From: a virus | IMG/VR virus record: IMGVR_UViG_3300005441_000003 | Span: 1-45,696 of that record | Reading direction: 5' to 3' (one strand) | DNA length: 45,696 nucleotides | Shown: one piece after another, positions 81 through 18,343 of the stretch | How the letters are laid out: each line of letters opens with the position of its first letter | How positions within the stretch are numbered: position 1 is the first letter of the stretch | Made by a program: the position numbers and the translations under genes | The notes under the pieces: model-generated | What the model was told of the DNA's origin: nothing | Seen by the model: only the letters and a program-made list of their open reading frames with translations | Database searches by the model: none

Positions 81-2535
81 CCACATCGCGCCAGTCCCCA
101 TCCGGACAATTCACGAGAACAAAGCCGGTGTCGCTATGCGGTGTATCGGAGAACCAGCGCGCGACCTTGTTCCCGTTCGACAAGGCCAGCACATTGCTGG
201 TGAGTTCGGTTTCCGTGATGATTTCAGCGCAGCGCACACGGTTCCAGGTATAACCTCCGGGCAAATCCTCCGAATCCTCGATGAATTCTTGCGTGACGCA
301 TGACGGACGCGTACTCGCAGGCGCGGGAGAATCGGTCACGGCGTACATCTTGCTGTCTTCGGTCGACATCAGCGTGGTGCAGAGGTAGGAACCGTCAATG
401 GCGCTGTACGCACCCGTCGGCCGCGAGCGTCCGTAACCCCCGTAGGGATTCACCTGCATGATCGTGTCGTAGGCGACGAAGGGGTTATCCGTTTGGGGAA
501 GAGGATCCGCGATTAAATTGCAGACTTCCTTGGTTGCGATCTTGCGGTTGTCGGCCAGGATCATCGGGATACCGGTGGGATCTCCCCAAATGCGCTTCCA
601 GTGATCGCCGTTTGCCGGCAATGCGATCTCTTCCCAGACCGTCCAATCTTCCGTATCGCCACCGGACGGCAGCGTCGACCGATAGAGCTTGTCCCGCCCC
701 AGCATGAACATGGAATTCGTGAGTTCGCCCGCCCCGATGCGCGGGTTGCACTGGACGTAAATCGCATCGACGCCGAATTCGTCCGCGATGCCACTGCTCG
801 ACTCTGCGCTTGAGCTGCCGCCGCTCGAACCGCCTGAGGAGTCTTCTAGTGGAGGCGTGCTAGGCAGTTCGGGTTTACCCTCGGGTATGACCCGCACGTC
901 CTCAAACACACCGCGCCCGCTCTCGGTGGGAGAGGAGGCCGCGCCCAAGGACTGAAACAGGCTGCCGGTCCCGTCCGCGGTGTCGTGACGATGCCAGCCA
1001 AACGCGTCCAAGTCTTTGATATAGGTGCAGCCCAGCAAAGTACCGTCCGATCGGACGGCCCAAATGACGCTATGGGGAACCTGAGCAAAATCGATGCGCT
1101 CAATGACGTGGGTTTCGGTCAGGTGCGAGGCGTACAACTGCAAGTCGCGCCCGCGATAGCCGTCGACGGTGTCGGAGAATTCGAGGTCGCGTAACGCCCG
1201 CCCACGCACTTGAACGAAGATGATCGTGTTGCCGACCACGACCGGCATGACGTAGTCCGTGCCGTAATAGCTCTGATGCTTGGCGTTGATCGCGAACGGA
1301 GTCAGCACGCCGTCGACGTTGCCGAACACCACGCATTCTCCGGAGGCCGTCAGCAGGACCAGCTTACCCGCTTCGATCGCATGCCGGATTTCCGAGATAC
1401 GCCGGCCGACCACCGTAAACGTGACCGCGTCATCCTCCTGCAAGGGTGAGCGGATCGAAAAGTTTTTTAGGAATCCGGTGCGCGAGGTCCACGCCGTGGA
1501 CTTGTCCGTATTCGTTGACGCGAAGACGCGCCGTTGCTGATACGTGGTCGCCGTCGCCGGGTAATTGTCCGCAGTATCAAACAGCGTCCGCTCAATCGGA
1601 GGTGTCAGCGAGAGGTCCGGAGGATAGCCGATGTTGTTAAAGGTAGTCTGTCCGGTGGCCACACCGATGAACCCGAAGGTCCCGTTATCGGCCAAATCAC
1701 AATAGACGTTGTACTCCACCGCGCCCGTGACCGCGTCCCAACTGATGACATGCGGCTCCTCGGGTGTCGGTTCGCCAATGCCCACCACGGAGACCGGATC
1801 GGAAGGCAACGACTCTTCGTAAGTTTCCGCTTTGACGGCCGTGACGACGTACTTGTACTCGAGGGTCGGGCCGGACTCGCCCGATTCATCGGAGGCCGAT
1901 CCGACAACATTCTCCGGAGGATCGATACTCGGCGCCGTCGAGATGATGCGCAAGACCCACCGCGTAGGAAAGCGGACCAATTCATACGGCGGATACAGCC
2001 GGTGCGTCAGGGTGAGCACGTCCCCGTCTTGCTTCCATTGCAACTTCTCAAGATGTTCGGTCGCGTAGGGTGTCGGGATTTCGAGGATGTTGCCCGGTTG
2101 CGGATACCAGAAGTCTTCCCAATTGGTTCCAGCGCCCGGCTCATCGTTCGCCGCATTCGAGGTGTGCGCCTGAATCGCGTAGTAGTTCAGGCCGTCGTTT
2201 TCGACGAGGTCGCCTTGCAGGTACGGAGTTGCGTCCGTCCACGAGTCCGGATTCCCGACCGTGACTTGTCCGCCATCGTGGTAGAGCCGGAAGTACTGAT
2301 GACCGGCTTCGATGATGAACCCGTCCTCATCCGAGAAGATGAACGAGAGGAGCCACGTTCGCTTGGTCGAGTCTTTAACTTCCGCGATGAACTGCGTACC
2401 GGGCCGGTTGCACACCCCACCGTGCCGCATGACCATGAAGTTGCGACAACGGGCCAGCGCGTTCTGATAGACGCGCGGATCCGCCCCGCCGTAGAGCGTG
2501 GTCGCGATCTCGCCAAAGCTAAACGAACGTTGCAT
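1..2535 (-). CDS. Tail nozzle (tail tubular protein B-like) protein, N-terminal 845 codons; gene continues at 45616-45230
   Basis: The frame is open from ATG at 2535 to position 1 and continues in frame through the terminal overlap to a stop at 45230, giving a protein of about 973 aa. The N-terminus (MQRSFSFGEIATTLYGGADP) and the following ARCRNFMVMRHGGVCNRPGT segment are typical of podovirus nozzle proteins. So is the later QRRVFAST...SIRSPLQEDDAVTF...RRISEIRH region. These proteins form the distal tube through which DNA leaves. After about residue 565 there is a Ser/Gly-rich linker (SSGGSSGGSSSAESSSG), then roughly 400 residues with beta-propeller-like repeats that the family does not usually have. 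The start overlaps the stop of the upstream tail gene as TAATG. Confidence 0.88.
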   Translation of the reverse strand, partial: MQRSFSFGEIATTLYGGADPRVYQNALARCRNFMVMRHGGVCNRPGTQFIAEVKDSTKRTWLLSFIFSDEDGFIIEAGHQYFRLYHDGGQVTVGNPDSWTDATPYLQGDLVENDGLNYYAIQAHTSNAANDEPGAGTNWEDFWYPQPGNILEIPTPYATEHLEKLQWKQDGDVLTLTHRLYPPYELVRFPTRWVLRIISTAPSIDPPENVVGSASDESGESGPTLEYKYVVTAVKAETYEESLPSDPVSVVGIGEPTPEEPHVISWDAVTGAVEYNVYCDLADNGTFGFIGVATGQTTFNNIGYPPDLSLTPPIERTLFDTADNYPATATTYQQRRVFASTNTDKSTAWTSRTGFLKNFSIRSPLQEDDAVTFTVVGRRISEIRHAIEAGKLVLLTASGECVVFGNVDGVLTPFAINAKHQSYYGTDYVMPVVVGNTIIFVQVRGRALRDLEFSDTVDGYRGRDLQLYASHLTETHVIERIDFAQVPHSVIWAVRSDGTLLGCTYIKDLDAFGWHRHDTADGTGSLFQSLGAASSPTESGRGVFEDVRVIPEGKPELPSTPPLEDSSGGSSGGSSSAESSSGIADEFGVDAIYVQCNPRIGAGELTNSMFMLGRDKLYRSTLPSGGDTEDWTVWEEIALPANGDHWKRIWGDPTGIPMILADNRKIATKEVCNLIADPLPQTDNPFVAYDTIMQVNPYGGYGRSRPTGAYSAIDGSYLCTTLMSTEDSKMYAVTDSPAPASTRPSCVTQEFIEDSEDLPGGYTWNRVRCAEIITETELTSNVLALSNGNKVARWFSDTPHSDTGFVLVNCPDGDWRDVAFDSDAYLAVGVGENQIMVSTDGVSTF

Positions 2536-4079
2536 TAGGGCCGGTTCCAGTCCTGAAAAGTCATACCGGGTGGTTGGTCGTTACAGATGCCGCTCCGCGC
2601 CTGAATCCATTCCGCTTCCCGCGGTTTGTCTTTCTGGCTTTCGTTGGCCGCAATGGCTTCCGCCCGCACCAGGTCGTTGAGGTACATCACTTCACACCGC
2701 TGCACGACGGCCTTGTCGTTTTTGGTTTGCGCGATCGAGGGCGCCAGGAGTGACGCGAGTCTCCACGCGAGCGCCGAGCGGAACATCGGATCAAACGCCG
2801 CGACGTCTTCAATGCGGGCAGTGTAGGCAATTCGGGCATCGGGCTGGTCGGTGTAGATCAACGCGCCGTCATAGACAAGGGACCATGTCGTGATGGCTGT
2901 TTCCTGAAGCGAGACCGGCACGTCGACGTCGGAGAATCCAATCACTTCCGTTGCCGAGACAAACTCGGTAATTGTGATCGTGGCGACGTCTTCGCCGTCG
3001 ACGAGTTGAATGGCGCTGCCGACATCGGAATCCGCGAACAGGTCCGCACTCGCCGTGATGGTGATTTCATCGTCCGGCGTCCAGCCGGTCACGCTGGTCA
3101 GCGTCAACGTTTCTTCGGTGTCGTTCTCCCATGCGTAGCCGCGCCCCACATCGAACGGGGGCGGATTGTGGCCACGCTGCCGCAGTCCCTGGATCGTGAG
3201 GCGTCGGACGTTCAAGCAGTCGGAGGGTTGCCGGTAGACATAGACCCAATCGTCATTCGCGCGGTCGGTTCGATCCGCCGTGACGTTCCGCCCATCGATT
3301 AAGCCGGCCGTGGCGTACTTCGTGGCAAAGGGCCAATGGAAACACCGCAACACGTAATCGCGCTCTTGTGGGAAGTTCACGCGTGGCCAGAGCTGCGCAA
3401 ACTGCAATTCGGGATCGGCCACGACGACATTTCGCGCGATGCCGATGCGGCTCAACGCGAGGTTGAAAAGTTCTCTTACCCGGAAGTCCGCTTGTCCCGA
3501 GGAGATCGAGTATTCCGCTTCCTGAAGCCCCCGCGATTGCGCTTCCGCACGATCGGCGGCATAGCCCTCCTGGCAAATCTTCTGCGCGTTCTCGAGGCGC
3601 GAGTGACCCAACGCCAGCCCCTCGCCCAACTTCCACGCGAGCATGGAGACGAACGACGGGTCAAACTCTGCGGGGTCGGTGACGTCGACGGTGTACTCGA
3701 GTTCTGCATCCGTCTGATTGGTGAAAATCAGCGGGTCGCCGTCGTCGCTGCGGCCCCGTTCAAACGGTGGCGGGGAATCGTCCTCGCGCCCTTCGTCTTT
3801 CAGGACGCGCCGGGCAAACACGCAATCGACCGGATAGGTGTACGCGTACACCCAATCGGTATTCGCCGGGTCGTCAATGTCGCCGTCGACCAATTCCAGA
3901 ACGAGGTACTTTTTCGCAAACGGCCAACGGAACCCGCGCAATAACTTTAGCCGCTCGATATCCCACAGCGTGAGTGCGGCCCGCGAGACCGCGTTGTCAT
4001 CGGTGTCGACGTCGACGAGTGGCGTGTTTTGACCGATGCGCAGGAGCGCGAGATTGACGATTTCCGTTTTGCTGGCCAT
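2535..4079 (-). CDS. Tail tubular protein A-like protein, tandemly duplicated (514 aa)
   Basis: This is a likely gatekeeper or adaptor between portal and nozzle, of the T7 gp11 type. The family motif appears twice: EIVNLALLRIGQ near residue 5 with FRWPFAKKYLVLEL near 50, and again ELFNLALSRIG near 203 with FHWPFATKYATAGL near 250. Each half also carries a tyrosine-rich DDWVYxYxxPxDCLxxRR segment. Family members are usually about 200 aa with one copy, so this is a fused duplication. The second half also contains an extra beta-rich segment around residues 325-400. A weak AGGAAC ribosome site precedes the ATG. The upstream glycosidase ends 6 bp before it, and the stop overlaps the nozzle start by one base. 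Confidence 0.85.
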   Translation of the reverse strand: MASKTEIVNLALLRIGQNTPLVDVDTDDNAVSRAALTLWDIERLKLLRGFRWPFAKKYLVLELVDGDIDDPANTDWVYAYTYPVDCVFARRVLKDEGREDDSPPPFERGRSDDGDPLIFTNQTDAELEYTVDVTDPAEFDPSFVSMLAWKLGEGLALGHSRLENAQKICQEGYAADRAEAQSRGLQEAEYSISSGQADFRVRELFNLALSRIGIARNVVVADPELQFAQLWPRVNFPQERDYVLRCFHWPFATKYATAGLIDGRNVTADRTDRANDDWVYVYRQPSDCLNVRRLTIQGLRQRGHNPPPFDVGRGYAWENDTEETLTLTSVTGWTPDDEITITASADLFADSDVGSAIQLVDGEDVATITITEFVSATEVIGFSDVDVPVSLQETAITTWSLVYDGALIYTDQPDARIAYTARIEDVAAFDPMFRSALAWRLASLLAPSIAQTKNDKAVVQRCEVMYLNDLVRAEAIAANESQKDKPREAEWIQARSGICNDQPPGMTFQDWNRP

Positions 4080-4085
4080 GTGTTC

Positions 4086-7000
4086 CTACTTCCGCGGCTC
4101 GGGTTGCTTCTTGAACGTCCCCGATTCGGTCGTCGTGTTAAATCCGGTATTCGGTTCCGCCGTTACCGTGGTCGTGCGACTGCCGGCACGCAGCGCGAAT
4201 TGATAGACCGCTTTGTTTCCGGCTTCATCCCGCACCACAACAGAAAAGTAATAAGTGCTCTTTGAATTGAGTCCCGTGGCCGTATACGTCGTGATGTTGT
4301 TCGCATAATTGGCAATCAGCGTGGAGGCTTCCGCGCCCGCCAGGGATGTCACGCGTTTGGTCGAGCGATAGACCGCGTACTGCAAATTCGCAACGGACGT
4401 CACGTTATCCGTAGCCGCGGTCCAGTTGAGCCGCACGCTCTTGGTGGTCAGCCGTGTAATGGTGAGCGTTCCACTGTTACCCGGTACCGGCGCTGTCGTG
4501 TCGCTGTCCTGCGGGGGAGGCGTGGCCGCACAATTCGGGCCGACGCAAAGGCTCACCGTCGCGGAGACGTTCCCCGCAACGTCTTTCGCCCGCACGCGAA
4601 AATATCCGGTCATGGAACTGATCGAGGAGTAATCGACGAACGTGTCCTGAAGCCAATTGCCGAACGTGCAACCGCTGCCGGTTTCGAGACAGTAGGAATA
4701 GAGAATCGCCGAAGGGTTGGCTTGTTCGACCGGGGCGCCTTGCTCGACGTTGACCTCGCCCAGATTCGGCACCGACTGATCGTCCATCCCAATCCAGCGG
4801 ATCCGGATGTTGTCGCCCGTGGTCGCTTCCCGCGGGCCGTCCACGATGACCACATTTGGCGCAGCGGTATCCATGCGTGAGGCAATCACGCCAGCCGATA
4901 GCCGCGTGCCCAACGTGGTTCCCGAGATCCCGTTGCCGACCAAATAGACCGGGTTGCGCCCGTAAGGAATGACCGTTCCTGTAAACGCGATTGGGTTGCG
5001 GAACCGGTCATAGAGCAGATATTCGCTGGCTGTCCCGCTCAACGTCACCTGCCGCGGCAGATAGTCGGAGGAGAACAGGACCGCCACCGGCACACCCGAG
5101 GCTTGCTGAAATTCCAAGAACTGGCTATTGCTGGCCGGACTCTTGTTCCCTAAGCGTGTGGCGTGATCCAGAAACGAGCCACCGATCGCGAGAGCCACGA
5201 GCTTCGCCGAGGGACTGTTATCGAATTCCAGGCCCGAGGTGGACGCTTGCGACTGAATGTTGCGTGAGTCCGGGCCGACCGTGCGGGTGTCATACAGGCA
5301 GTACTGCGACTGCTTCGACGAGAGGGTCCGCGCGAAAATCTCTGCAATCTGCGTGGGACTCGTGGCCAGTCCGGTATAGAACCGGGCCGCATCGTTGTAT
5401 GGGTAAATCGCTTTTCCGGGAGAGTACCACTGTGCGTTAGGACCGAAGTACGAGCCGTAATCGAACACTCCGGATTCGGTGTTGCGGATTTCGTAGCCGT
5501 AGGTGTCGACGATCGCGATTAGGTTTTCCGGAGGATACCCGCCGAAGTAGTTGTGCGTGGACGCGACCGTGAACTTCGTCAGATATGCGGGCTGGAGTGC
5601 CGCGAACACGTTCGTCATAAACGAGGCCGGCCGCCCGCCCATCGCAATGATGGTGGTGTCGTCCAAGTCGTTCGCTTGTATCGCGTCGATCGTGACCTCG
5701 AGGAGATCCGCGTAGAACGAGGCCGTATACGAGGGCTCATTCCAGACTTCCCAGAGCTTCACCGTGTTCTTGTAGTGGTTGACGATCGTCGAAACGAACG
5801 TCGCCCACTTCGTGAGATCCGGCTTGCCGGTTCCATCGTCGCCATAAGTGGGCAGTCCGGACGAACACCCGCCGCCCGAGCACTCGCTACCGAGCACGCC
5901 CATGATGGTAAAGCCCGCCGCCTGCGCTGCCGCGATCGAGGAATCGAAATAACGGAAACCCCCTTCCGTTGGCTCGGCCGCTTCCCATCGGAAGAACCCC
6001 GTGGGACTCAACGCGCGAAGAGTTTTGAATCCGAGGCGTTGCTGGACGACCAGCTGATGCGGGTAGGTGGTCGCGTGAACACACATCGCGGAAGACGGAT
6101 CGACGCCTGGCCCGACCGCGTAATTCGGAATGATGCTGTACGCCAGCTCCCGGTCGGTTTGATCGTGGCCTTCCCGCCAGTATCGGAGCGTGAAGAAGCC
6201 GGAACGGTTGCCGGTCGCAAACGAAAACGCCGTCGTGGTGCCGGAATTCGCGGAGGCCGAGAGCGGCAGTGTCCCCGCAGACACGACCCGCAACAGGTCG
6301 TCGCGGATTTCGTAATTCCATTCCTGATTGGTGATTGCGGAGCCGGTCGTGTTGTACGCCCGGATCGTGCCGAGCAAGGATTCGTTTGAATAGAAGACGT
6401 TGCCCGGCTTGCCCGTCGCAACGACAACCTCGAGAGAATTCGCCGCGGCAAAGGTCGAGCCCGTCCCTTCATTCAACGAGACGTCATCGAAGTAAACCGT
6501 GCCGTTCGTGATCCCATTGCAGGAGCCGACCGGTTGGTAATAGGACTCGGGGTATTTCTTGGCGTAACCCGAGAACGCGAATTGCACCCAGGCCGACGAC
6601 GTGACCGAGAGCGCCCCGCCCCACGAATGTTGCGCGTGGTAGCCCGCAGGCGGATCAAACGTGTTGACCATCTGCAGGGTGCAGAACTGCGACCCCGTCG
6701 CCATCTTCATCCAGCCCGAGATGGTGTAGCGGCGATTCGGCTTGAGCTTGAAGACAGGCCCGTACCAAGTGGTGGGCCGGTCTAAATCGTTCAGGTCGAT
6801 GGCGAGCGAATGCGTCCCCGAATGTGCTGCGGCTGTGGTCCACATCGGGTCGGGATCCATTGGACGCGTGGCCGCAATGCCCCACTGTCCCCGATCGTGG
6901 CCCGCTTCAAAACTCCCGTCGCCGATGAGATTGCGCGTGCTGGAGATCGTGTTGTCTTCGGTCGCTGGAAAGCTCAGGTTGACCGCCGCTCCGTTGCCAG

Positions 7001-7568
7001 GTCTGGACAGAACGACGAGGTCCGCATCGGTCGTGATGTAGAGACCGCGGAACAGCGTCTTATTCTGCGAGCCGACTTTGGTCAGCGTCAGCGTGGCCGT
7101 GGTCGTTGTCGTTAACGGGGTGATGGTCGCGCGTTCGGTCCAGTACCCGTTATCGTTATTCGATCCGCCGCAAATCGACGTCGCCCGATCCTCGAGCTTG
7201 ACCGTAGTCGAGTCCACCGCGCCAATGGTCAGCTTGACCGTCGAGCAGAAGTCATACCCAATGGCGAAGAAATAAACGTAGTTCGCAACGCCCGTGGTCA
7301 ACGCGCGCGGGAGCGTGAGGGTGCAGGTTGTCGTCGCATCAGTCGTGTTCGTGTAGTCGCCGACTTCGGGCGCATCGTTGGTGATGATCGTCCCGGTGGG
7401 TCCCGCCGTGACCCATGTCCCTTGACCGGCGCATTGGGTCGCGCCCGCGGCCATCATCGTCACTGAGGTCGCATCGTAGGTGCTCAGACCAAACAACTGC
7501 GCGTGTGCCGGTTGAGACAGGCAGACCACGAGCGTTAACGCGAATAGGAAACAAAGCAGGCGTTTCAT
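4086..7568 (-). CDS. Secreted clan GH-A glycosidase with carbohydrate-binding and FN3-like modules (1160 aa)
   Basis: The N-terminus is a Sec-type signal peptide: MKR, then a hydrophobic run ending in AHAQ near residue 24. Residues ~215-370 resemble a CBM4/9-type jelly roll (NLIGDGSFEAG, YTISGWMK, GTVYFDDVSLNEG). Residues ~500-760 look like a clan GH-A barrel, with EVWNEP near 608 (Glu as likely acid/base) and NTESGVFD near 697 (Glu as likely nucleophile). The C-terminal ~250 residues contain Ig-like and fibronectin III-like modules (SVRLNWTAATDN, TYYFSVVVRDEAGN). It sits between the capsid genes and tail tube in the late operon, where a tailspike or depolymerase would be expected, but a cleavable signal peptide is unusual for a virion protein. 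The substrate and exact GH family are not determined. It could be a spike or an exported enzyme. Confidence 0.8.
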   Translation of the reverse strand: MKRLLCFLFALTLVVCLSQPAHAQLFGLSTYDATSVTMMAAGATQCAGQGTWVTAGPTGTIITNDAPEVGDYTNTTDATTTCTLTLPRALTTGVANYVYFFAIGYDFCSTVKLTIGAVDSTTVKLEDRATSICGGSNNDNGYWTERATITPLTTTTTATLTLTKVGSQNKTLFRGLYITTDADLVVLSRPGNGAAVNLSFPATEDNTISSTRNLIGDGSFEAGHDRGQWGIAATRPMDPDPMWTTAAAHSGTHSLAIDLNDLDRPTTWYGPVFKLKPNRRYTISGWMKMATGSQFCTLQMVNTFDPPAGYHAQHSWGGALSVTSSAWVQFAFSGYAKKYPESYYQPVGSCNGITNGTVYFDDVSLNEGTGSTFAAANSLEVVVATGKPGNVFYSNESLLGTIRAYNTTGSAITNQEWNYEIRDDLLRVVSAGTLPLSASANSGTTTAFSFATGNRSGFFTLRYWREGHDQTDRELAYSIIPNYAVGPGVDPSSAMCVHATTYPHQLVVQQRLGFKTLRALSPTGFFRWEAAEPTEGGFRYFDSSIAAAQAAGFTIMGVLGSECSGGGCSSGLPTYGDDGTGKPDLTKWATFVSTIVNHYKNTVKLWEVWNEPSYTASFYADLLEVTIDAIQANDLDDTTIIAMGGRPASFMTNVFAALQPAYLTKFTVASTHNYFGGYPPENLIAIVDTYGYEIRNTESGVFDYGSYFGPNAQWYSPGKAIYPYNDAARFYTGLATSPTQIAEIFARTLSSKQSQYCLYDTRTVGPDSRNIQSQASTSGLEFDNSPSAKLVALAIGGSFLDHATRLGNKSPASNSQFLEFQQASGVPVAVLFSSDYLPRQVTLSGTASEYLLYDRFRNPIAFTGTVIPYGRNPVYLVGNGISGTTLGTRLSAGVIASRMDTAAPNVVIVDGPREATTGDNIRIRWIGMDDQSVPNLGEVNVEQGAPVEQANPSAILYSYCLETGSGCTFGNWLQDTFVDYSSISSMTGYFRVRAKDVAGNVSATVSLCVGPNCAATPPPQDSDTTAPVPGNSGTLTITRLTTKSVRLNWTAATDNVTSVANLQYAVYRSTKRVTSLAGAEASTLIANYANNITTYTATGLNSKSTYYFSVVVRDEAGNKAVYQFALRAGSRTTTVTAEPNTGFNTTTESGTFKKQPEPRK

Positions 7569-7910
7569 TTAGATCACACTCAAGGCGTCATCGTTGACCG
7601 GCTCCGCGACTTGCTTCGCTTTGCGCTTCCGCGGCTTCGGGTCAATCGGCAGCATGGTTTTGTTGTTCAGTTCCGGAACGTCGAGCGGATCCAGGACTTC
7701 GGGCGCTTCCGGTGCGTATCGGTAGCCGACTGGCACCATCCACTTTGATGTGAAGTGCAGCGTGACGGTCCCGTCTTTGGCCGCTGCGGCTTTGGTGATC
7801 TCGTCGTCGTCGTCCGCAATCGGCCGCCGCGGTTCGTCCGCAATCGTGAATTCGTCGCCCGGCCGGACGCGAATTCCACAAAACCCCTTCTCTGTCGCAA
7901 TCACGCGCAT
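7569..7910 (-). CDS. Small structural-module protein of unknown function (113 aa)
   Basis: The start MRVIATEKGFCGIRVRPGDEF resembles short proteins that commonly follow capsid genes in tailed phages. The body is acidic (ADDDDE) and the C-terminal third is basic (KPRKRKAKQ). The stop abuts the ATG of the glycosidase gene (TAAATG). CGGAG lies 7 bases before the ATG. A terminator lies upstream of it, between it and the cement gene, so its expression probably depends on read-through. A head-completion or adaptor role is possible but not shown. Confidence 0.6.
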   Translation of the reverse strand: MRVIATEKGFCGIRVRPGDEFTIADEPRRPIADDDDEITKAAAAKDGTVTLHFTSKWMVPVGYRYAPEAPEVLDPLDVPELNNKTMLPIDPKPRKRKAKQVAEPVNDDALSVI

Positions 7911-7923
7911 GCAGCAACTCCGT

Positions 7924-7958
7924 AAAAAAGTCCGGAGGCATCACGAAGACACCTCCGG
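7924..7958 (-). terminator. Rho-independent terminator after the cement gene
   Basis: On the minus strand a 7-bp perfect stem (CCGGAGG/CCTCCGG, arms 7952-7958 and 7932-7938) with a 13-nt loop is followed within two bases by six T. It lies just after the stop of the cement gene. It would raise the ratio of capsid/cement mRNA to the tail genes beyond it. Confidence 0.8.
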
Positions 7959-7976
7959 TTGGGGGTTGAGGAATGG

Positions 7977-8456
7977 TTATTGCAGGCCCGACTTGTACGC
8001 CAACCAGGGGGTCGGGTCCATGGTCAAGAATGCATTCACCTTGCCTGCGGTGGTCGTGGTTGTCCCAATCACAGCTTGTACGGCAAGATATCTTTCGTAC
8101 ACCGGACCTTCGGACGGCAACGCCACGCAGACCGGCACGCCGCCGATATTCATCTGGGCATCGTTCGCCGCAGAGTCATCGGTGACGAAAGCCTTGCTAG
8201 CGAAGTGGACCGTGGCCGAACCATCGGTTGCGATGGTGTCGGTCGCATCGGAAACCAGCAAGAACTGAATCGTCCCCGCCGATCCGCCTGTGATGATCTC
8301 CGTGTCGACGGTGATGACTAGGTACGTCGGCGGTTTGCCCTTGCCGATATCCCGGTGATTCGCACCCAGATCGATGATGTTGCCCACGTTGATCGTGCTG
8401 GCGGTGGCCGCAACTGATACCGCGTCGGCGAATTCTGTTCGTTTATCGAGAATCAT
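7977..8456 (-). CDS. Bbp16-like capsid cement (decoration) protein (159 aa)
   Basis: The N-terminus MILDKRTEFADAVSV, then STINVGNIIDLG and RDIGKGKPPTYLVITVD, match the pattern of the BPP-1 Bbp16 capsid cement family. That family binds the outside of the HK97-fold shell and stabilises it. The length is normal for the family. It lies directly downstream of the major capsid gene, as in BPP-1. A strong AAGGAGGG ribosome site lies in the loop of a small AAGCC/GGCTT hairpin just before the ATG, so initiation may be tuned. Terminator 7924-7958 follows. Confidence 0.82.
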   Translation of the reverse strand: MILDKRTEFADAVSVAATASTINVGNIIDLGANHRDIGKGKPPTYLVITVDTEIITGGSAGTIQFLLVSDATDTIATDGSATVHFASKAFVTDDSAANDAQMNIGGVPVCVALPSEGPVYERYLAVQAVIGTTTTTAGKVNAFLTMDPTPWLAYKSGLQ

Positions 8457-8487
8457 AAAAAGCCCTCCTTGGCTTGATTCGCCTGCG

Positions 8488-9498
8488 TTACGCGACGGCG
8501 GTTTCGGAATTGACGATCTTGTCGCAGCGTCGGACTGGCACTTCTTCGAACATCATCACGCGACGGCCGGCGACGGTGTCCATGGTCAGTGTCGAGCTTG
8601 CGACTTTGTTGGTGATCTGACGGCGCAGGAAGGAACGCACCGTGCGGTTCATGTAGAAGCCCCATCGGACGCTGCCGCTGTCGGTCTCGGGGACCAACTC
8701 GAGAGCCTGCGTCATTAGGTCGATGAGGTCGGCACCGGTTCCGGCGTTCTTCGTGAGTGCAGTGTAATCAAGATTGCAAATTCGCACGATAAAACGCCAA
8801 TCGGGCACGCTCAGGCCGCAGTCCATGCGGAAGTGATCGCGGTACATTTCCGCGCGACCACTGGCACCGTCGACGTTCTCGACGGTCACGACGCCCTTGT
8901 CGGTGTGCTTGAGTCCACCAACGGAGCCCTGAGGATAGATGCCGTGCGCGGACTGGTCGCCCCAGCCAATCAACCACACGCTGGTCAGGTTCGAAGCACC
9001 CGTACCGTTAATCACGTTCTCGGCAGTTTTCGCCGTCGACGTGGACAGTGCGTTGAAACGCGGAGCGAGACCCGTGAAGGCTTCCGGTTCGGAAGCATCA
9101 TTGCCATAGAACAAGGTGTCCGCGAATTCCTGGGCGATCCCTTCAATGTGGGCACGGGCTTCGGAGAGACGAAAGGCCGCGGCATTGTTGGCAATGTCCG
9201 CCAATGCCTGATCGATTTCGGCATACGCTTCGAGCATGCCGCAGTTGTCGGTGACTTTTGCGCGCGCGCTCTTTGTGGGCTGCACGCCACCGTACAATTT
9301 GCGCCATGTCGGGGTCGGTAAACCGGTACGCACCACAGTTTGGTTACCGGTCGGCAGATTCCCCTCTTTCATGGGGATGTCTTTCATGATGTCGTTGGTC
9401 TGATTCAGAATCTCCGCAACAGTTGCGATTGAACTGTCGGGATTCATTGCATTGACAACGTCAAGCAACGTGGGATTGATCGCACTGAGTACTGCCAC
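8488..9498 (-). CDS. Major capsid protein, HK97 fold (Bbp17-like, 336 aa)
   Basis: The sequence from VLSAINPTLLDVVNAMNPD onward, including ILNQTNDIMKDIPMKEGN, LPTPTWRKLYGGV and AYAEIDQALADIANN, is typical of the BPP-1-type major capsid family. The length and its position between scaffold and cement genes agree. Translation starts at GTG 9498 behind a strong AAGGAGGA site. It should form the icosahedral shell with the upstream scaffold protein as assembly template. Confidence 0.92.
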   Translation of the reverse strand: MAVLSAINPTLLDVVNAMNPDSSIATVAEILNQTNDIMKDIPMKEGNLPTGNQTVVRTGLPTPTWRKLYGGVQPTKSARAKVTDNCGMLEAYAEIDQALADIANNAAAFRLSEARAHIEGIAQEFADTLFYGNDASEPEAFTGLAPRFNALSTSTAKTAENVINGTGASNLTSVWLIGWGDQSAHGIYPQGSVGGLKHTDKGVVTVENVDGASGRAEMYRDHFRMDCGLSVPDWRFIVRICNLDYTALTKNAGTGADLIDLMTQALELVPETDSGSVRWGFYMNRTVRSFLRRQITNKVASSTLTMDTVAGRRVMMFEEVPVRRCDKIVNSETAVA

Positions 9499-9552
9499 AA
9501 GTCCTCCTTGACTCGTTCGCCCCGCCCATCCGTGGACGAGGTCGGAAAATGG

Positions 9553-10185
9553 TTAGCTCTTCGCCATCGATGGATACATCGCCGCGGCCTTTTCGGCTTC
9601 GGTTTTGGGTCGGTCGTGACCGGCGCCGGCGCGAGCATTCAAAGGCATGCTGTCCTCTTTCATGGCTCGCCCGATCGATCGCAGTAAGCGCACAACATGA
9701 ATGTTGTTACCCAGGCCGGTATCGTTGAGCATCTTTCGAAGATCTTCGGTACCGAACCGGGTCAACGCGCGCTGGACGTCTTGTTCGGTCGCCGAGCGGT
9801 TTGCGCCGCCCAGGTCCTTGTCCGCCCAGGTCTGCGTTTCCCATTCCTTGATGGCTTGTTCGACGGTCTGTTGTGAACGTGAGGCGAATCCGCTCACCCG
9901 TTCGTGCAGGAAGTCCACGAACTGTTGAGCCTGTTCTCCGGAGAATCCTCGCTCTCGCGCATAGGCGGCGATCTTCTCTGCGTCCTCTTTGGGATCGAAC
10001 AGCGATTCGTCTTTGAATTTGAGTTCATACTTTTCGGGCACCAGCTTCTTGCGCTCCGCTTCGGACGTGGTTTTGAATTCCTCCACGGCAGAAGTTTTCA
10101 CGGTCGGAAGGTAGTTCTCGAAAAATGCTTTTTGCTCCGGAGACAGTGAGGTCTCAAACGAAGCGGAATCTTTAATCTCAGCCAT
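9553..10185 (-). CDS. Capsid scaffold / assembly protein (210 aa)
   Basis: A charged, helix-rich protein immediately upstream of the capsid gene. It contains EDAEKIAAYARERGFSGEQA and FVDFLHERVSGFASRSQQTV, a pattern common in podovirus scaffold proteins, and has a disordered C-terminal tail (GAGHDRPKTEAEKAAAMYP). Scaffolds guide procapsid assembly and leave before DNA packaging. It follows the Bbp19-like gene by 3 bp. The Shine-Dalgarno candidate is distant (GGGGGAG, about 14 bases away), so coupling to the upstream gene is likely. Confidence 0.8.
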   Translation of the reverse strand: MAEIKDSASFETSLSPEQKAFFENYLPTVKTSAVEEFKTTSEAERKKLVPEKYELKFKDESLFDPKEDAEKIAAYARERGFSGEQAQQFVDFLHERVSGFASRSQQTVEQAIKEWETQTWADKDLGGANRSATEQDVQRALTRFGTEDLRKMLNDTGLGNNIHVVRLLRSIGRAMKEDSMPLNARAGAGHDRPKTEAEKAAAMYPSMAKS

Positions 10186-10188
10186 AAG

Positions 10189-10581
10189 CTAGGCGTTCTC
10201 CCCCGGATCGACGTCCGGTTCTGTTTCGGGTTGCTTGTCCCGCTGCCGCACGCGCAGCGATTCGGCTTCGCGCTCGTCTTGTTGGGCTTGTGCGATGCGC
10301 TCTTGTTCCAATTTGATCCAGATGAACGGGTCGACGGCTTCGAGCAAAGCCCGTTGCGCGTCCGCGATATCGCGTAAGGCCGCAGTGTAGTAGACGCCGC
10401 TATCGGCGCGAAACGTGGGCTTGGCTTGGGTCTCCGTCGCGTGGATGAAATGCCGCACGACATACCGGCCGCTTGCGGTTGAGAGCACTTCGCGAATTGC
10501 CGAGAACAAACGGTCCTCGTCGCGCTTCGTTTTCTTCTTGGCCTGCCGGATTTGTTCTTTGTCGGCCGCGTTGCGGTTCAT
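10189..10581 (-). CDS. Bbp19-like phage protein (130 aa)
   Basis: The pattern DEDRLFSAIREVLSTASGRYVVRHFI, then FRADSGVYYTAALRDIADA, matches the Bbp19-like family found next to scaffold and capsid genes in BPP-1 relatives. The molecular role of the family is not known to me. The C-terminus is charged and low in complexity. The start overlaps the upstream secreted LamG-like gene by 4 bases (ATGA). Confidence 0.72.
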   Translation of the reverse strand: MNRNAADKEQIRQAKKKTKRDEDRLFSAIREVLSTASGRYVVRHFIHATETQAKPTFRADSGVYYTAALRDIADAQRALLEAVDPFIWIKLEQERIAQAQQDEREAESLRVRQRDKQPETEPDVDPGENA

Positions 10582-11819
10582 CGGGCGACCTCCGTTCCGA
10601 GAACGGCAAAAGTCGTGGCGTCGAGGACGTTTTTATTTCTCGTCCACACCCACTGACGTGGATCGCTGACGGCACTGTTGCGGGTAGCACTGTTGCCCAA
10701 CCACAGTTCGTCGATCGTGTCGGCGGTGGATCCGTACCCAGACGAACTTGGATCAGGAGTGCCAGTGAAAACGTGATTGGACCCTACTCCGGTGTTCTGC
10801 GTGAACGTAACGGTGTTGGTCTGGCCGTCGTCGAGCGTGAGATTGAGGCTGACGTGTGAAGCGTCGACGTTGATGTTGTACTTCGTGAGCAGATGCCACG
10901 CGCCATCGTTGACCGAGGTGTCCAGTTTGATGTCTGTCGCCGCGAGGTCACTGGCTTTGATCAGGTTCTGGCAGCAATGGTATCCGGACGTGCTGATGTT
11001 GAAGCCAAACGTGTATTGCTGGCCCCCACCGTCGCTCGATTCGTTGTAGGGATACGTGATGGCCCGAGATGCACTGGTTTTGATCAATACATCAACCGTG
11101 TTGCTACTCAGGTTTGCGAGATACCAAGTTGAGGGAAAGACTACATAGCTTGTCCCTCCGGTCGGTGTTGCCGCGGCACCAAACTTCCCTCCTGTGGAGG
11201 AGGTGACACCAACAGTCCCAGTAATGCTGACGCCGTTCCGAGCGCCCAAGGCATCGTTGATGTTCAGGCTCCCGCCAGAGTTCTCAAAGTGGTAGACCGA
11301 TATGTAACCAGCGGCACTGTAGGTCCCCGACGCATCGCTGGCATCAGTGGTCTTCGTGGGATTGTCATGGCAGAGATAGAACGTCGTGTCGACCGTGTGC
11401 GAGAGATCGCGCTTCACATTCACGATCACGTGGCCAGTCGTGCCGTCGTACAACTGCTTCTCGTATCCCGTGATCGGCGTTGTGCAGGTGTCCGAGTACG
11501 GGCGGATGTCGTCGCCTTGCGCATCGGCAACGTGTCCGCCATTGGCAAGCGTCTTGAATCGATCGTCTGTGTAGTCGAGCTGGACGATGAAGTGGTTAAC
11601 GTCCTCTGCCGTGCAGCACGCACCGCTCCCAACCTTGGTGTGATCGACAACGACCGGACTGTAGTAAAGGAAGACGTCTGGCGCAGATCCCGCATCCGAT
11701 ACACCAAGCAGCGTTAACCCGGACTGTTCTGCAAGAAGCTTGACCGGAGGCATACTCACCGCGGACACAAATCCGCCGCAGATCAGCAACGCAAACAGAA
11801 GCGTGGAGAGCCGTTTCAC
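10578..11819 (-). CDS. Secreted DUF2341/LamG-like beta-sandwich protein (413 aa)
   Basis: The N-terminus MKRLSTLLFALLICGGFVSA is a clear signal peptide. Residues ~45-150 resemble DUF2341-type sequence (LYYSP, HFIVQLDY, FYLCHDNP). Residues ~165-410 look like a LamG/concanavalin-like sandwich (ISVYHFENSGG, TVDVLIKTS, DTIDELWLGNSATR), folds that bind glycans or proteins. It starts with GTG 11819, 1 bp after the stop of another secreted-protein gene. It lies between portal and capsid genes, where BPP-1-type phages usually carry no exported protein. A decoration protein, adhesin or released glycan-binding protein are all possible. Confidence 0.68.
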   Translation of the reverse strand: MKRLSTLLFALLICGGFVSAVSMPPVKLLAEQSGLTLLGVSDAGSAPDVFLYYSPVVVDHTKVGSGACCTAEDVNHFIVQLDYTDDRFKTLANGGHVADAQGDDIRPYSDTCTTPITGYEKQLYDGTTGHVIVNVKRDLSHTVDTTFYLCHDNPTKTTDASDASGTYSAAGYISVYHFENSGGSLNINDALGARNGVSITGTVGVTSSTGGKFGAAATPTGGTSYVVFPSTWYLANLSSNTVDVLIKTSASRAITYPYNESSDGGGQQYTFGFNISTSGYHCCQNLIKASDLAATDIKLDTSVNDGAWHLLTKYNINVDASHVSLNLTLDDGQTNTVTFTQNTGVGSNHVFTGTPDPSSSGYGSTADTIDELWLGNSATRNSAVSDPRQWVWTRNKNVLDATTFAVLGTEVAR

Positions 11820-11820
11820 G

Positions 11821-12924
11821 TTAGTAGCTCACCGTCGATTTGTAGCCAGAGCAGGAGATTTTTGTACTCGAGCCGGTCGTCACGTTCGCCGAATACAATG
11901 CGTTACCCGCTGTCGGCACTTTCAGCGGAGCTGGGAATACGTATGTGCCGCCGCCGCCCCCCGTTGTGGCCACTGTCGCGGCCGGTGCCGGAAGCACATA
12001 GAGCGTCGTGCCGCCGCTGCCGTCCTGCAACAGAATGTCGGTCGATACCGTCGTGCTCGCGTTCGACGTCGTGCATTGCGTGATGTAGAGATAATTCGAT
12101 GCGGTCCCGCCAACCGTCGACGTGGACGTGGTACCGGTCATCGCGGAAGTCACCGCGCCGCTAACCAGGGTCGCGCCCTCGGGTAACCCGCTCGGGTACT
12201 CCTGCACGACGCGGACACCGCCCTTCAAGGTGTCGCACGAAAGATACGTCGCGGTGGCAGTGGTTGGTGTCGGCGGCGACGTGGCCACGAGACACGGAAT
12301 CGTATTGATGGCCGTCGAGCCCGGCGTGTTCCCATTCCCCTTGTTGCCGGTCTGGATGACCACCACGGAACCGGTCGAGATGTTTTCAATCGCCGTCTTG
12401 ACCGATTGCTGGGTTGCTTCCAGATTCAACAACGATGTATTCAGGTTCGTACCCGCATTCGCGGTCACCGTTCCCGTTGTGCTTGTCGTGACGGTCGTGG
12501 ATCCCGGTGCGATATCGCGCCATCCAATCAGGTCCGCGTACACGGTGCCTGTGCCGGTTTTGGAATTCAGTACGATCTTGAGCCACGGCTGAAAGCCCGT
12601 GCCGATGACCGTACCGAATGTCGTTGCCGTGACCGGCAACGTGCCCGAGGAGAGCGTCGACCATGTCGAGAAGCTTCCTGGCGATCCGCTCGAATCCGGC
12701 GCCCCATCGAATTCCACCGACACTCCCGAAAATCCCGTCGAGTAATAAGTAAACTGCCACACCGTACAACCGGCCTTGCGGTTATCCAGGTTTGAACTGG
12801 AACCGGCCGCGGTAAATTCCGCGTGCAGGCGGCAACCTTCGTCAGGAACTTTCTGAGTGGCAATCTGTCCGAATCCCGGCAGACTCAAAAGCATCAATGC
12901 GCAAATCAATGAAATCCGTTTCAT
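11821..12924 (-). CDS. Secreted Ser/Thr-rich beta protein, function unknown (367 aa)
   Basis: I chose ATG 12924 because AAAGGTACCCC precedes it and it exposes a good signal peptide (MKRISLICALMLLSLPGFGQ). An upstream in-frame start would bury this. The mature part is rich in Thr, Ser, Gly and Val (TTVTTSTTGTVTANAGTNLN, ATVATTGGGGGTYVFP), as in fibrous or beta-sheet adhesin-like proteins. I recognise no catalytic motif. It sits with the LamG-like gene downstream and DUF1508 gene upstream (13 bp gap), forming an accessory block within the late operon. Confidence 0.6.
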   Translation of the reverse strand: MKRISLICALMLLSLPGFGQIATQKVPDEGCRLHAEFTAAGSSSNLDNRKAGCTVWQFTYYSTGFSGVSVEFDGAPDSSGSPGSFSTWSTLSSGTLPVTATTFGTVIGTGFQPWLKIVLNSKTGTGTVYADLIGWRDIAPGSTTVTTSTTGTVTANAGTNLNTSLLNLEATQQSVKTAIENISTGSVVVIQTGNKGNGNTPGSTAINTIPCLVATSPPTPTTATATYLSCDTLKGGVRVVQEYPSGLPEGATLVSGAVTSAMTGTTSTSTVGGTASNYLYITQCTTSNASTTVSTDILLQDGSGGTTLYVLPAPAATVATTGGGGGTYVFPAPLKVPTAGNALYSANVTTGSSTKISCSGYKSTVSY

Positions 12925-12937
12925 TGGGGTACCTTTC

Positions 12938-13126
12938 CTAGTCCTTGAGGGCGTAATCGCGTATGCCCAGACTTGCAATCAATCGCAAGAGTCCGCGCTT
13001 GCAGGTCGCCCGGCGTTTGTATGTTTCGCTGGAACGGGCGATCTGGCGCCCGTTGCGATGACTGAGCCGCCAAAAGAATTCCCCGTTTCGGCTGCGCTCG
13101 ACGGTCGCGGTGTATTTCGGCTGCAT
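12938..13126 (-). CDS. DUF1508 (YegP-like) small protein (62 aa)
   Basis: The segment RNGEFFWRLSHRNGRQIARS followed by SETYKRRATCKRGLLRLI is the signature of a single DUF1508 repeat, which folds into a small alpha/beta unit and is widespread in bacteria with no defined role. The ATG overlaps the stop of the upstream transferase gene (TGATG), so it is co-translated with it. Its presence in a phage late operon is unusual. Confidence 0.65.
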   Translation of the reverse strand: MQPKYTATVERSRNGEFFWRLSHRNGRQIARSSETYKRRATCKRGLLRLIASLGIRDYALKD

Positions 13127-13806
13127 CAGGCAGTCTCCTTTTCAAAGCGTGAGGGCGTACAGAATCGCTCCGTTAAAAACTCTTTCACTTCCGTGCTCAC
13201 CCGGCCGCGCGACGAATAGAACGGCCCAACCATTGGACGCTGTCGCTTGCAGTCGCTCATGCGTGCGAGGTTCAACGCTACACGGAAGATGTTGCCGTAC
13301 AGCGACCGGAATAGACCGCGCTTCCAGAACGGCACAATCTCCGCGAGCTGTTGCACCTTGTCGCGCTCCACGGGAAACGGCACATGCACCCCGAAGTCGA
13401 GCGGGTCGGTGAACTGCCGGCGCGTGAGGATGTCCAAGGTTTCGGCCCGGCGCTTGTTGTACGGGCTGGTGATTCGGCGCACGCGTGCGAGATGTGAACG
13501 AATCAAACCCATGTGGTACGTCGGCAGGGTGTCCATTTTCGCCAAAAGGTAAAAGTCATCGTTCATCAAGACGAACCGTTCCGGCAGCAGCGGCAGCGCC
13601 TTGAGGAGTTTTCCGCCCACCCGTTCCGCTTTGTCGATGCCGGTTTCCTCCATCGGGATCCGGATCACATTCCGTGCGAAGGCGGGAACATTCCCAACAA
13701 TCGCCACACTCGATATCGGCGCGTAGTTCTCCAACGACCGCAGCGAGTAGCGCAGTTCGTTGTTGCCCCAAATAGAGCCTTTGCCGATGAGGTAGACGAA
13801 GTGCAT
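13126..13806 (-). CDS. Stealth-like sugar-phosphate transferase (226 aa)
   Basis: ELRYSLRSLENYAP near residue 17 and the LPERFVLMNDDFYLL segment near 75 match conserved regions CR1/CR2 of Stealth proteins, which transfer hexose-1-phosphate units in capsule-type polysaccharide synthesis. The Asp pair in MNDD is the likely metal/nucleotide site. It is shorter than cellular Stealth proteins and its C-terminal half is diverged. It is coupled to neighbours on both sides (TAATG upstream, TGATG downstream). A role in modifying virion or host-surface glycans is inference from the family and context. Confidence 0.65.
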   Translation of the reverse strand: MHFVYLIGKGSIWGNNELRYSLRSLENYAPISSVAIVGNVPAFARNVIRIPMEETGIDKAERVGGKLLKALPLLPERFVLMNDDFYLLAKMDTLPTYHMGLIRSHLARVRRITSPYNKRRAETLDILTRRQFTDPLDFGVHVPFPVERDKVQQLAEIVPFWKRGLFRSLYGNIFRVALNLARMSDCKRQRPMVGPFYSSRGRVSTEVKEFLTERFCTPSRFEKETA

Positions 13807-14567
13807 TACGCGAGATCCACTTCGATATAGAGCACGGTCGCCGTCAGGGTGTTGGCCGCATGCCCGCCCGTGAAATCCTCATTGTCATTGGTCGCGTTCA
13901 GATACAGAGCATCCACGCCCGGCCCACCCGCTGCGGAGCCCAGGCCATTGTCCGAATAGATACCGAGAGCGCATTCCCTCACGGTTCCGCTCGATAGCAT
14001 GCTGGAACCCGAGACGGATGCTGTGAACGCGGCGCCGCCGTTAACCGAGAGTACAGAAGCGACGTCGATATTGGTGTAATCGCCGGCCGTATGATCCACG
14101 GCCAAATACGCCATGATTGGCACGAAGGACGTCCGCTCTTTCGCAGGGACCAGCGGGAAGCCCCGCGCGCTATTCATCGTCGGGAGGGACTTGATTTGGT
14201 CATTCGACAACCGCACGGAAACTTTCTTGATCTGCGCCGGTAATCCCGCGGGCACCGTCTCGCCAATCGTCGCGTCGATGTCCCCAGTGAATTCGTCGGA
14301 CTCGTCGATATCGTCGGCAACGAAGCGGTAGAACCGGGAATGCGTTGTCTCGTTTTTGACCGTGCCCGAAATCAGCGTCGATTCGGCTTCAACGACAATC
14401 TCAAACGCATAAATGGAGTCACCGCGCTCCAACCGGATTTTGCCGACAAAGCCACCGGACTCTTCCGTGGTCACGGCATAAGTCGCACTCTCGCCAGCCC
14501 CCAATGAAAACGTCGGGCCGACTCCCGCTTCGGTGAAGTTGTGGGTGTAGGTTGTGATCTGTGACAT
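13806..14567 (-). CDS. Uncharacterised beta-rich virion-module protein (253 aa)
   Basis: I do not recognise a family. The protein has no signal peptide and no clear membrane segment. It is rich in beta-forming, acidic and Gly/Ser residues (for example VKNETTHSRFYRFVADD and LYLNATNDNEDFTGGHAANT). It follows the portal gene directly (its ATG lies upstream of nothing but a 1-bp junction at 14567/14568) and is coupled to the transferase gene by a TAATG overlap. A head fibre, head decoration or connector-associated role is possible. Confidence 0.55.
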   Translation of the reverse strand: MSQITTYTHNFTEAGVGPTFSLGAGESATYAVTTEESGGFVGKIRLERGDSIYAFEIVVEAESTLISGTVKNETTHSRFYRFVADDIDESDEFTGDIDATIGETVPAGLPAQIKKVSVRLSNDQIKSLPTMNSARGFPLVPAKERTSFVPIMAYLAVDHTAGDYTNIDVASVLSVNGGAAFTASVSGSSMLSSGTVRECALGIYSDNGLGSAAGGPGVDALYLNATNDNEDFTGGHAANTLTATVLYIEVDLA

Positions 14568-16253
14568 TTACTCTCCTTGCATCACCGTATCGAGTGCGGT
14601 GTTTTGATCCATCGGGGTTGTGCCTAAATCTTTCGCGGCTTTCGCCTGCATTTGTGCCTGTTCGGCGGCCATCATCTGCGCTTGCTGTTGTTGTCGCTGC
14701 TGTGCGATTTGCGCGGCTTCGTCATCCGATCGCAGCATCTTGGGCGGAACGCCGGTCATGTCCGCGTACTCGTTCATCACTTCCGCCCAATTCACTTTAT
14801 CGAGCACTTCGGGCGCGATCGGTGCGACGGCCAGCGTGGTTTGGATGAATCGATCGACGGGGCCAATGCGGACGAGCTTCAATGCCCGGTTCAACATCGA
14901 GACGTAATTCAGCGTCAACCGTACGCCGAGTAATTCTTGCGGGGGTTCCGGCAGCATGCCCGCCCGTTCCATCATCGGGAAGATGCGGTCAAAAGTCGGT
15001 TCGTGCAGTTCGTCGTTGTTGCGCTCCACGACCTGAGAGAGCGCCCAGAATTTTTCCTCGTGCCGTTCTTCAATTTCGCGCGCGGTTTTCTGCGGACTCG
15101 GAGACGAGGCAATCATCAAGAACAAGTCTTCGTAGAACGCGCGCCGGATGAGGAAACGCACGTCCTCGATATCGACCCGCAGGTCCCCGATGGACAACGA
15201 GACTTCATGCACGGGCCGAATACCCTTGTCTTGATTCAAGGCATCGAGCGCGTTGTACTCGCCAGGCAGGAGTGAGATTTGTTTCAGTTGAGACGGTCCC
15301 TGCAATGGCGGGTTAACCATCTTTTCGAGGGCTTGCCCTTTGCGCTTGGTTTCCACCTGTAACTGCTGAATGTCCCCGAGGGCGTCCATTGCCGGGCAGC
15401 TGGACCCGTAGATATCGCCCACGACCGCGTCCCACCGGGGCGCCACAATCGGAAACTCGTTGAAGCCGGATTCCTTCAGAAACCCGCTGTGTCCTTTTTC
15501 GAAGTGGCAGGAGTAGAACGGGAGATGCTTCGCTTCAACGCGGTATTCGTCCGCGTCCCGGTTGGGTGAGACGATCCAGCAGACATCCACATTCGTTTCG
15601 TAGTCGTGCTGGTCCCACAGCTTCTTGACGTTCGGGGAGCAGACGGACCAATCGAACTTGCCCGTCTCCGCATCGAATACGAATTGTTCGACGATCTGCG
15701 CGACCGTCATTTGATACTCATGCACGAAGGTGTCGACGGTTCCACGATTCGACACCCCCAATGCATACGATCCCACCGGGAACGGGTAACACCGGAACAG
15801 ATCCCGGCTATCTTCCATGATGGCCATGCAACCGGTTCCGAATGTGCCCTCGTCCCCGTACAACGTGGGATACGCGTTATAGAGATTCGTGGAGGCGAAG
15901 ACGGCATACATGATGCGCGTCACATCATGGAGCCATTCCTTGACCGGTCCCCACTTCGCTAGATTCGGATCCGGTACGCCAAGCTCAAACCACGGGCTTG
16001 CGGGGTTGCTCATCCCGGTCGCCATGCCACTAATGAGAGTCCGCAGCGCAAACGTGGCCGTCGAATCGATGATTCGGCGGTTGCGTTTATCCCCGCGGTT
16101 CCGATCGCTGGCCAAGGTGCGCAACCGTTGCGGCCGGATGAAATCCGCCAGTTCGCGCCAATGACTTTCAAACGAACCGCGCTCCTTCATCAGCGTGGCC
16201 TGGATCGTGTCGTATTGCTGGCGCTTCGAGATATCGAGACCGAACTTAGCCAC
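14568..16253 (-). CDS. Portal / head-tail connector protein (561 aa)
   Basis: The opening (KRQQYDTIQATLMKERGSFE, HWRELADFIRPQR) and ATFALRTLISGMATGMSNPA are typical of the T7 gp8-type head-tail connector family, which forms the dodecameric portal for packaging and tail attachment. Length is normal (510-600 aa). The C-terminus is Gln/Ala-rich and helical (AQQRQQQQAQMMAAEQAQ). It starts with GTG 16253 and overlaps the endolysin stop by 8 bp. Confidence 0.93.
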   Translation of the reverse strand: MAKFGLDISKRQQYDTIQATLMKERGSFESHWRELADFIRPQRLRTLASDRNRGDKRNRRIIDSTATFALRTLISGMATGMSNPASPWFELGVPDPNLAKWGPVKEWLHDVTRIMYAVFASTNLYNAYPTLYGDEGTFGTGCMAIMEDSRDLFRCYPFPVGSYALGVSNRGTVDTFVHEYQMTVAQIVEQFVFDAETGKFDWSVCSPNVKKLWDQHDYETNVDVCWIVSPNRDADEYRVEAKHLPFYSCHFEKGHSGFLKESGFNEFPIVAPRWDAVVGDIYGSSCPAMDALGDIQQLQVETKRKGQALEKMVNPPLQGPSQLKQISLLPGEYNALDALNQDKGIRPVHEVSLSIGDLRVDIEDVRFLIRRAFYEDLFLMIASSPSPQKTAREIEERHEEKFWALSQVVERNNDELHEPTFDRIFPMMERAGMLPEPPQELLGVRLTLNYVSMLNRALKLVRIGPVDRFIQTTLAVAPIAPEVLDKVNWAEVMNEYADMTGVPPKMLRSDDEAAQIAQQRQQQQAQMMAAEQAQMQAKAAKDLGTTPMDQNTALDTVMQGE

Positions 16254-16737: not shown

Positions 16738-16787
16738 TGCGATGCGCCTCCGTGCGTTCTATGGGGACGTCGACCGGCCCCCTGCGG

Positions 16788-17198: not shown

Positions 17199-17200
17199 AG

Positions 17201-17470: not shown

Positions 17471-17478
17471 GGCGTCAC

Positions 17479-18287: not shown

Positions 18288-18311
18288 CCGTGCCTTTCCA
18301 AGAAAGTGAGC

Positions 18312-18343
18312 CGCGGCAACGTCCCATCGTGGTTGTTGCCGCG
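18312..18343 (-). other. Inverted repeat between small membrane gene and 214-aa gene
   Basis: A 9-bp perfect inverted repeat (CGCGGCAAC/GTTGCCGCG) with a 14-nt loop lies in the 157-bp gap 18288-18444. It lacks a convincing T-run on the minus strand, so it may be a weak terminator or an mRNA processing or stability hairpin. I see no other feature in this gap. Confidence 0.5.

Follow-up and report, generated by a model that had tools for sequence, protein, structure and literature searches.

Three predicted exported proteins in a virion operon

We analysed IMG/VR virus record IMGVR_UViG_3300005441_000003 at its full length of 45,696 bases (the window), focusing on three genes inside its virion operon whose products, SP1, SP2 and SP3, begin with signal-like N-termini. 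The first and last 80 bases of the record are identical and thus close it to a circle of 45,616 bases. The window is the complete genome of a temperate epsilon15/BPP-1-type podovirus, from an uncultured soil phage; this identity follows from a PF12236 portal, a PF20911 capsid, a Bbp16 cement protein and tail tube genes in conserved order. It also encodes internal virion proteins and an integrase. The initial annotation had placed three genes starting with a hydrophobic signal at 4086-7568, 10578-11819 and 11821-12924, and open reading frames (ORFs) with Sec-type signals by rule were indeed found there. All three lie on the minus strand: SP1 (1160 amino acids (aa), ATG start) runs from 7568 to 4086, SP2 (413 aa, GTG start) from 11819 to 10578, and the adhesin-like, Ser/Thr-rich SP3 (367 aa, ATG start) from 12924 to 11821. 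Mechanical ORF calling put the start of SP3 at position 12978 (TTG); a AGGAAAGG site speaks for the ATG at 12924.

Signal peptides were predicted with a home-made rule combining charge, hydrophobicity and cleavage site, not with SignalP. The predicted peptides are MKRLLCFLFALTLVVCLSQPAHA, cut before Q, in SP1 (7500-7568, minus strand), MKRLSTLLFALLICGGFVSA, cut before V, in SP2 (11760-11819, minus strand) and MKRISLICALMLLSLPGFG, cut before Q, in SP3 (12868-12924, minus strand). Each N-terminus combines an n-region containing K/R with a hydrophobic core, whose best 9-residue Kyte-Doolittle mean is 2.9, and with a -3/-1 site, namely AHA before QL in SP1, VSA before VS in SP2 and GFG before QI in SP3. 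No lipobox ([LVI][AST][GA]C), twin arginine or further strong transmembrane stretch was found in SP1, SP2 or SP3. Across the whole window the rule matched only SP1-3, an Rz1-like lysis lipoprotein (17470 to 17201, minus strand) and one spurious antisense ORF; the lipoprotein, an expected exported protein, served in effect as a positive control. A looser rule, applied to about 160 related loci consisting of viral contigs and 80 contigs of bacterial genomes, flagged 10 of the 1186 core and 11 of the 399 accessory proteins, and seven of these ten core proteins carry real hydrophobic leaders on capsid or scaffold. The signal peptides of SP1-3 are real outliers within the virion module.

The three genes are tightly packed among virion genes. 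SP1 starts at the base right after the stop codon of the preceding gene and ends six bases from a tail gene, while SP2 starts one base past the SP3 stop codon and overlaps the next gene by four bases. A scan of positions 2300-18400, covering promoters of the sigma-70-like type only, detected none. Late co-expression of SP1-3 is favoured because of these start-stop junctions and the absence of a recognisable promoter, and the three genes look like ordinary members of a late operon.

SP1, SP2 and SP3 had no PHROG match, and among 50,697 phage records no relative was found for SP1 and SP2, and a single one for SP3, through its tip domain alone. SP1 consists of the signal peptide, a beta/CBM-like N-terminal half, a GH-A-like barrel region and a C-terminal FN3-like domain. 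Members of the GH-A clan have a TIM barrel with the acid/base Glu in an NEP-type motif and the nucleophile Glu on strand 7. The GH-A-like region of SP1 (approximately residues 490-900; 4869-6101, minus strand) contains the acid/base-type motif KLWEVWNEP, and NTESG was picked by eye as candidate nucleophile; residues 526-621 match GH39/GH5-like bacterial enzymes (E 4e-9). The bacterial match and the WNEP motif lend weak support to the proposed GH-A glycosidase, but no Pfam match reached gathering level in this region, and all Pfam matches of SP1 were weak and below the gathering score, including that of the FN3-like domain (residues 1034-1119; 4212-4469, minus strand; PF00041, E 7.8e-5), which fell slightly short of it. 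For SP2 a LamG-like appearance was recognisable by eye, but no profile matched. The description of SP3 as Ser/Thr-rich was accurate, as these residues make up 30.5% of the protein.

Comparison of the related loci revealed a near-constant gene order: portal, small gene, scaffold, capsid, cement, small gene, tail tube A and tail tube B. Two positions accept additional genes, one following the portal (slot A) and one following the small gene behind the cement gene (slot B). SP3 and SP2 occupy slot A and SP1 occupies slot B. In signal-less relatives these slots hold fibre-like proteins, classed by eye as repeat-rich, collagen-like or other beta proteins. Other signal-bearing slot proteins were found in slot B of locus L084 and in slot A of L078, and more such proteins lie in or near the module of L152, L155, L156, L161 and L165, whose source metagenome-assembled genomes are named Syntrophobacteraceae, Terriglobia, Deltaproteobacteria and Rhodospirillales. 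No other fibre or spike gene was recognisable in the window genome.

Cysteine pairing and the SP3 tip domain

Even, paired Cys are expected in proteins that fold in an oxidising compartment. We counted Cys in all accessory proteins of these phage modules that are 100 aa or longer and carry a strict signal peptide, chosen blind to cysteine. Among the signal-bearing proteins with any Cys in the mature part, 27 of 30 had an even count (binomial p 4e-6), and mature SP1, SP2 and SP3 contain 14, 6 and 6 Cys, respectively. Odd counts occurred in 152 of 270 signal-less accessory proteins and in 480 of 825 core proteins; the difference in parity between signal-bearing and signal-less accessory proteins was significant (Fisher's test, p 9e-7). 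It persisted when each homology cluster was represented by one protein (3 of 20 odd, p 0.0013) and when only proteins with at least two Cys were compared (1 of 28 signal-bearing versus 83 of 201 odd, p 3e-5). These figures come from a sample that was built by following leads and includes related sequences and a few likely false ORFs. Such parity, which does not depend on signal prediction, is characteristic of disulfide-bonded, exported proteins.

A second line of evidence came from the C-terminal beta-sandwich tip domain of SP3 (residues 280-367; 11824-12087, minus strand). Over its last 88 residues SP3 matches the C-terminal end of UOF79906 from a Manatee Spring podovirus (E 1e-8, 55% identity), a signal-less protein encoded behind the structural genes, where a tail fibre would lie. 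A scan yielded further copies of the tip, one with a signal peptide (L169) and others, plus that of L179, without. In the two signal-bearing copies two Cys, Cys284 and Cys358 in SP3 (TQC and KISC), were gained at positions where signal-less copies have V, I or A. Conversely, a lone Cys (LYCANV) kept in seven of the eight signal-less copies is gone from both. A third signal-bearing copy, from a bacterial genome (L211), has two Cys at other places and likewise lacks the lone Cys; its neighbour protein also begins with a signal. Together, cysteine parity and the exchange of a lone Cys for a Cys pair in homologous signal-bearing domains leave the predicted export of SP1-3 well supported.

A PDB fold search with the tip domain returned many generic jelly rolls and no clear relative, and in the search for a host the tip turned up in a single genome among 784 from three phyla. 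For the fibre family of alignment A4 no copy was detected in 596 genomes from two phyla, an empty answer that shows little as the search had no control.

Signal-bearing adhesins recur in other phages. Locus L169 is part of record G005 (62 kb; L185-L188), which has a head-closure gene of type Hc3. In this record the SP3 relative is followed two bases on by the gene of a clear Laminin_G_3 protein that likewise begins with a signal peptide, which parallels the succession of SP3 and SP2. In G005 and in record G006 (L189-L191) signals occur on nearly all large adhesin-type proteins and on no head or injection protein, which makes both records good targets for virion proteomics, given a host. G006 also encodes a signal-bearing protein of 730 aa outside the structural genes. 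In protein 13 of G005 the signal is followed by an N-terminal domain known from standard tail spikes and fibres, as shown by comparison with the tail spike of Xanthomonas phage PBR31, UOF77631 and UOF80282 (pairwise E 5e-9 to 1e-8), and this domain has two added Cys that are absent from all three. Homology of this N-domain to the spike of L194 was considered and not detected; the PBR31 match was found instead. Furthermore, all copies of a fibre-like family in L078, L185, L194, L195/L196 and L197 have a signal peptide. The family (L078/L185) had been regarded as a tail collar, a name that was dropped as no Pfam match was obtained. Other signal-bearing fibre families had no match in phage records.

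Proposed export, release and site of action

Building on gene position, signal-like N-termini, cysteine pattern and shared domains, we consider it likely that SP1-3 form a late-made, Sec-exported and disulfide-bonded surface-glycan kit that is released at lysis and acts outside the cell. Sec export, signal cleavage and periplasmic disulfide formation are established processes. Following late expression from the phage's own virion operon, the host Sec machinery would carry SP1-3 across the inner membrane, where we infer that the signals are cut and the Cys oxidised to disulfides. The kit would comprise SP1 as a likely glycosidase that also has carbohydrate-binding-like and FN3-like parts, SP2 as a beta protein and SP3 as an adhesin whose tip is interchangeable, and would stand in for a tail-fibre set. 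SP1-3 would most likely wait in the periplasm and leave with the virions at lysis. Once outside, they could be docked on the virion as receptor-binding appendages, or act free on host glycans. Docking, for which we see somewhat less than an even chance, is slightly favoured because no other fibre or spike gene is recognisable and because the signal-bearing protein 13 of G005 retains a spike N-domain; free action of the kit is possible, with less confidence. Among the earlier proposals, the coating of virions after lysis is slightly favoured, and the remodelling of surface glycan fits SP1; for release before lysis, no sign of a passage through the outer membrane was seen.

Several points weigh against this interpretation. 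The signal peptides rest on a home-made rule, and some capsid proteins of the same family carry signal-like leaders. There is no sign of how SP1-3 would cross the outer membrane before lysis, and no virion-anchoring domain was recognised in them. The structure model of whole SP3 is poor (pLDDT 42).

A tentative alternative, which we regard as rather unlikely, is that SP1-3 are a free secreted glycosidase and lectins that are never part of virions and that act on the surface polymer of the host, before or at lysis, to let progeny escape, mask receptors on debris or loosen biofilm. The resemblance of SP1 to an ordinary bacterial exo-glycosidase, the missing anchor domain and the position of the 730 aa protein of G006 outside the structural genes are all consistent with this. 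However, SP1-3 sit in the slots that hold fibre-like proteins in relatives, the SP3 tip domain is shared with proteins in fibre position, and free secretion would leave the phage without another recognisable receptor-binding protein.

It appears improbable that SP1-3 are lysogenic-conversion genes (morons) that are exported by the lysogen, alter the host surface and are only parked in the operon. The phage is temperate, with an integrase gene at 25939-27075, and the gene of lambda Lom, a signal-peptide protein of the outer membrane, likewise lies among tail genes (PMC12309495). Lom is an outer-membrane barrel made in the lysogen, whereas SP1-3 are several soluble multi-domain proteins of glycan type with no recognisable internal promoter and with start-stop junctions to virion genes. 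Moreover, they contain phage-fibre-type domains, and in other phages, too, multiple genes of this kind are found together.

Similarly improbable, and slightly more so, is that SP1-3 are not exported at all, their N-termini only anchoring them to the cytoplasmic side of the inner membrane or being leaders that are removed during assembly. This possibility is raised by five of 154 related major capsid proteins, all in prophages (L101:9884-11002, L106:9881-10993, L113:9860-10966, L117:9875-10990 and L100:9836-10990), in which an in-frame signal-like hydrophobic leader such as MKFLTNPRIQMIALAVIGLALALSGHAA precedes the normal N-terminus, in most cases with a good ribosome-binding site ahead of it; leaders of this kind are also present on the scaffold proteins of L077 and L100. 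Capsid assembly has to take place in the cytoplasm, and capsids cannot be exported. Because capsid proteins of the same family bear leaders too, a leader alone is no proof of export. However, the leader-bearing capsids contain 6, 3, 2, 1 and 2 Cys, with no clear pairing, versus the strong pairing in signal-bearing accessory proteins.

That bacterial secreted genes were joined to a phage contig by assembly artefact or chance, as the lack of SP1 and SP2 relatives in phage records might suggest, is very improbable, since independent contigs from other metagenomes carry the same genes adjoining the same virion genes at 99-100% identity and the record closes on itself through its 80-base terminal repeat.

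In architecture, the nearest known system to the proposed kit is the family of mosaic adhesive trimeric (MAT) fibres of Bdellovibrio bacteriovorus, which resemble phage fibres and combine a signal peptide and a beta domain with tips that can be exchanged (PMC10769870). In sequence (phmmer E 0.05) and in fold (VIA Z 7.1, 108 of 121 residues, 16% identity, a range in which chance matches are common) the tip of SP3 is weakly similar to that of Bd2133. MATs form trimeric beta-helical fibres and have a conserved beta-rich domain of about 130 aa after the signal, and SP3 and its relatives have a beta domain there that is likened to it by size. However, no S74 chaperone or beta-helix was detected in SP3, and MAT genes are chromosomal, in a predator, whereas the SP1-3 genes lie inside a phage virion operon. 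We regard the resemblance as a lead, not as membership. Known tail spikes and fibres share domains with the SP3 tip (UOF79906) and with protein 13 of G005 (PBR31), but are devoid of signal peptides and added Cys pairs. In epsilon15/BPP-1-type phages portal, scaffold, capsid, cement and tail tube genes are in the same order as in the window; in epsilon15 a tail spike without signal peptide (gp20) is encoded behind the module, whereas none is recognisable there in the window phage.

In textbooks, tailed-phage assembly is wholly cytoplasmic. Signal-bearing phage adhesins go against current expectation, and a study on the targets of phage retroelements regarded missing signal peptides as support for the phage origin of adhesins (PMC6199706). 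In the literature surveyed, which includes few subscription papers, signal peptides were nowhere described as generally present on phage fibres. Our comparisons with other uncultured phages suggest that many tailed phages may send such proteins out of the cytoplasm for disulfide locking, a behaviour that has not been reported for known phages. It is conceivable, if doubtful, that in a widespread group of uncultured tailed phages receptor-binding fibres and spikes are secreted through host Sec, gain disulfide bonds in the periplasm and are not attached to finished virions until lysis brings the compartments together. If export of fibres and glycan enzymes holds true, recognition of receptor-binding proteins in metagenomes would change, disulfide-stabilised fibres and a post-lysis joining step would be indicated, and there would be a route by which secreted phage-like fibres such as the Bdellovibrio MATs could arise. 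The cysteine-parity signature makes the export idea testable in any large virome.

Neighbouring genes and other features of the window

All features flanking the two slots lie on the minus strand. The upstream edge of slot A is the portal or head-tail connector gene (14568-16253; PF12236, E 7e-143; phrog_332). Directly after it, at the start of the slot, lies the gene of p253 (13806-14567), a signal-less protein of 253 aa with no family match, followed beside SP3 by a glycosyltransferase-like gene (13126-13806; phrog_7999, weak Stealth_CR2). A second glycosyltransferase-like gene is present in the virion operon at 43684-44322 (PF04488), and slot A of L086 likewise contains one. Between the slots lie the genes of the major capsid protein of the epsilon15 gp7 family (8488-9498; PF20911, E 4e-125) and the Bbp16-type cement protein (7977-8456; PF21190). 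Slot B extends from a small gene (7569-7910) ending directly ahead of SP1 to the gene of a tail tubular A-type protein at its downstream edge (2535-4079; phrog_394, E 8e-61, three stretches). A strong terminator-like hairpin (7932-7958, minus strand) lies between the cement gene and the one that follows; in epsilon15, terminators are annotated close by, downstream of gp9.

The tail tube A protein (514 aa) has an internal duplication, and long versions of 524 to 1257 aa are also present in L011, L029, L030 and L046. Tail tube B, joined across the circle from 1-2535 and 45230-45696, has 973 aa, and a separate gene after it (44319-45266) matches the C-terminal half of the tail tube B family, which indicates a protein split in two. 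Besides the tyrosine integrase at 25939-27075, a serine recombinase or DNA-invertase-like gene (20813-21433) lies beside the gene of the terminase small subunit.
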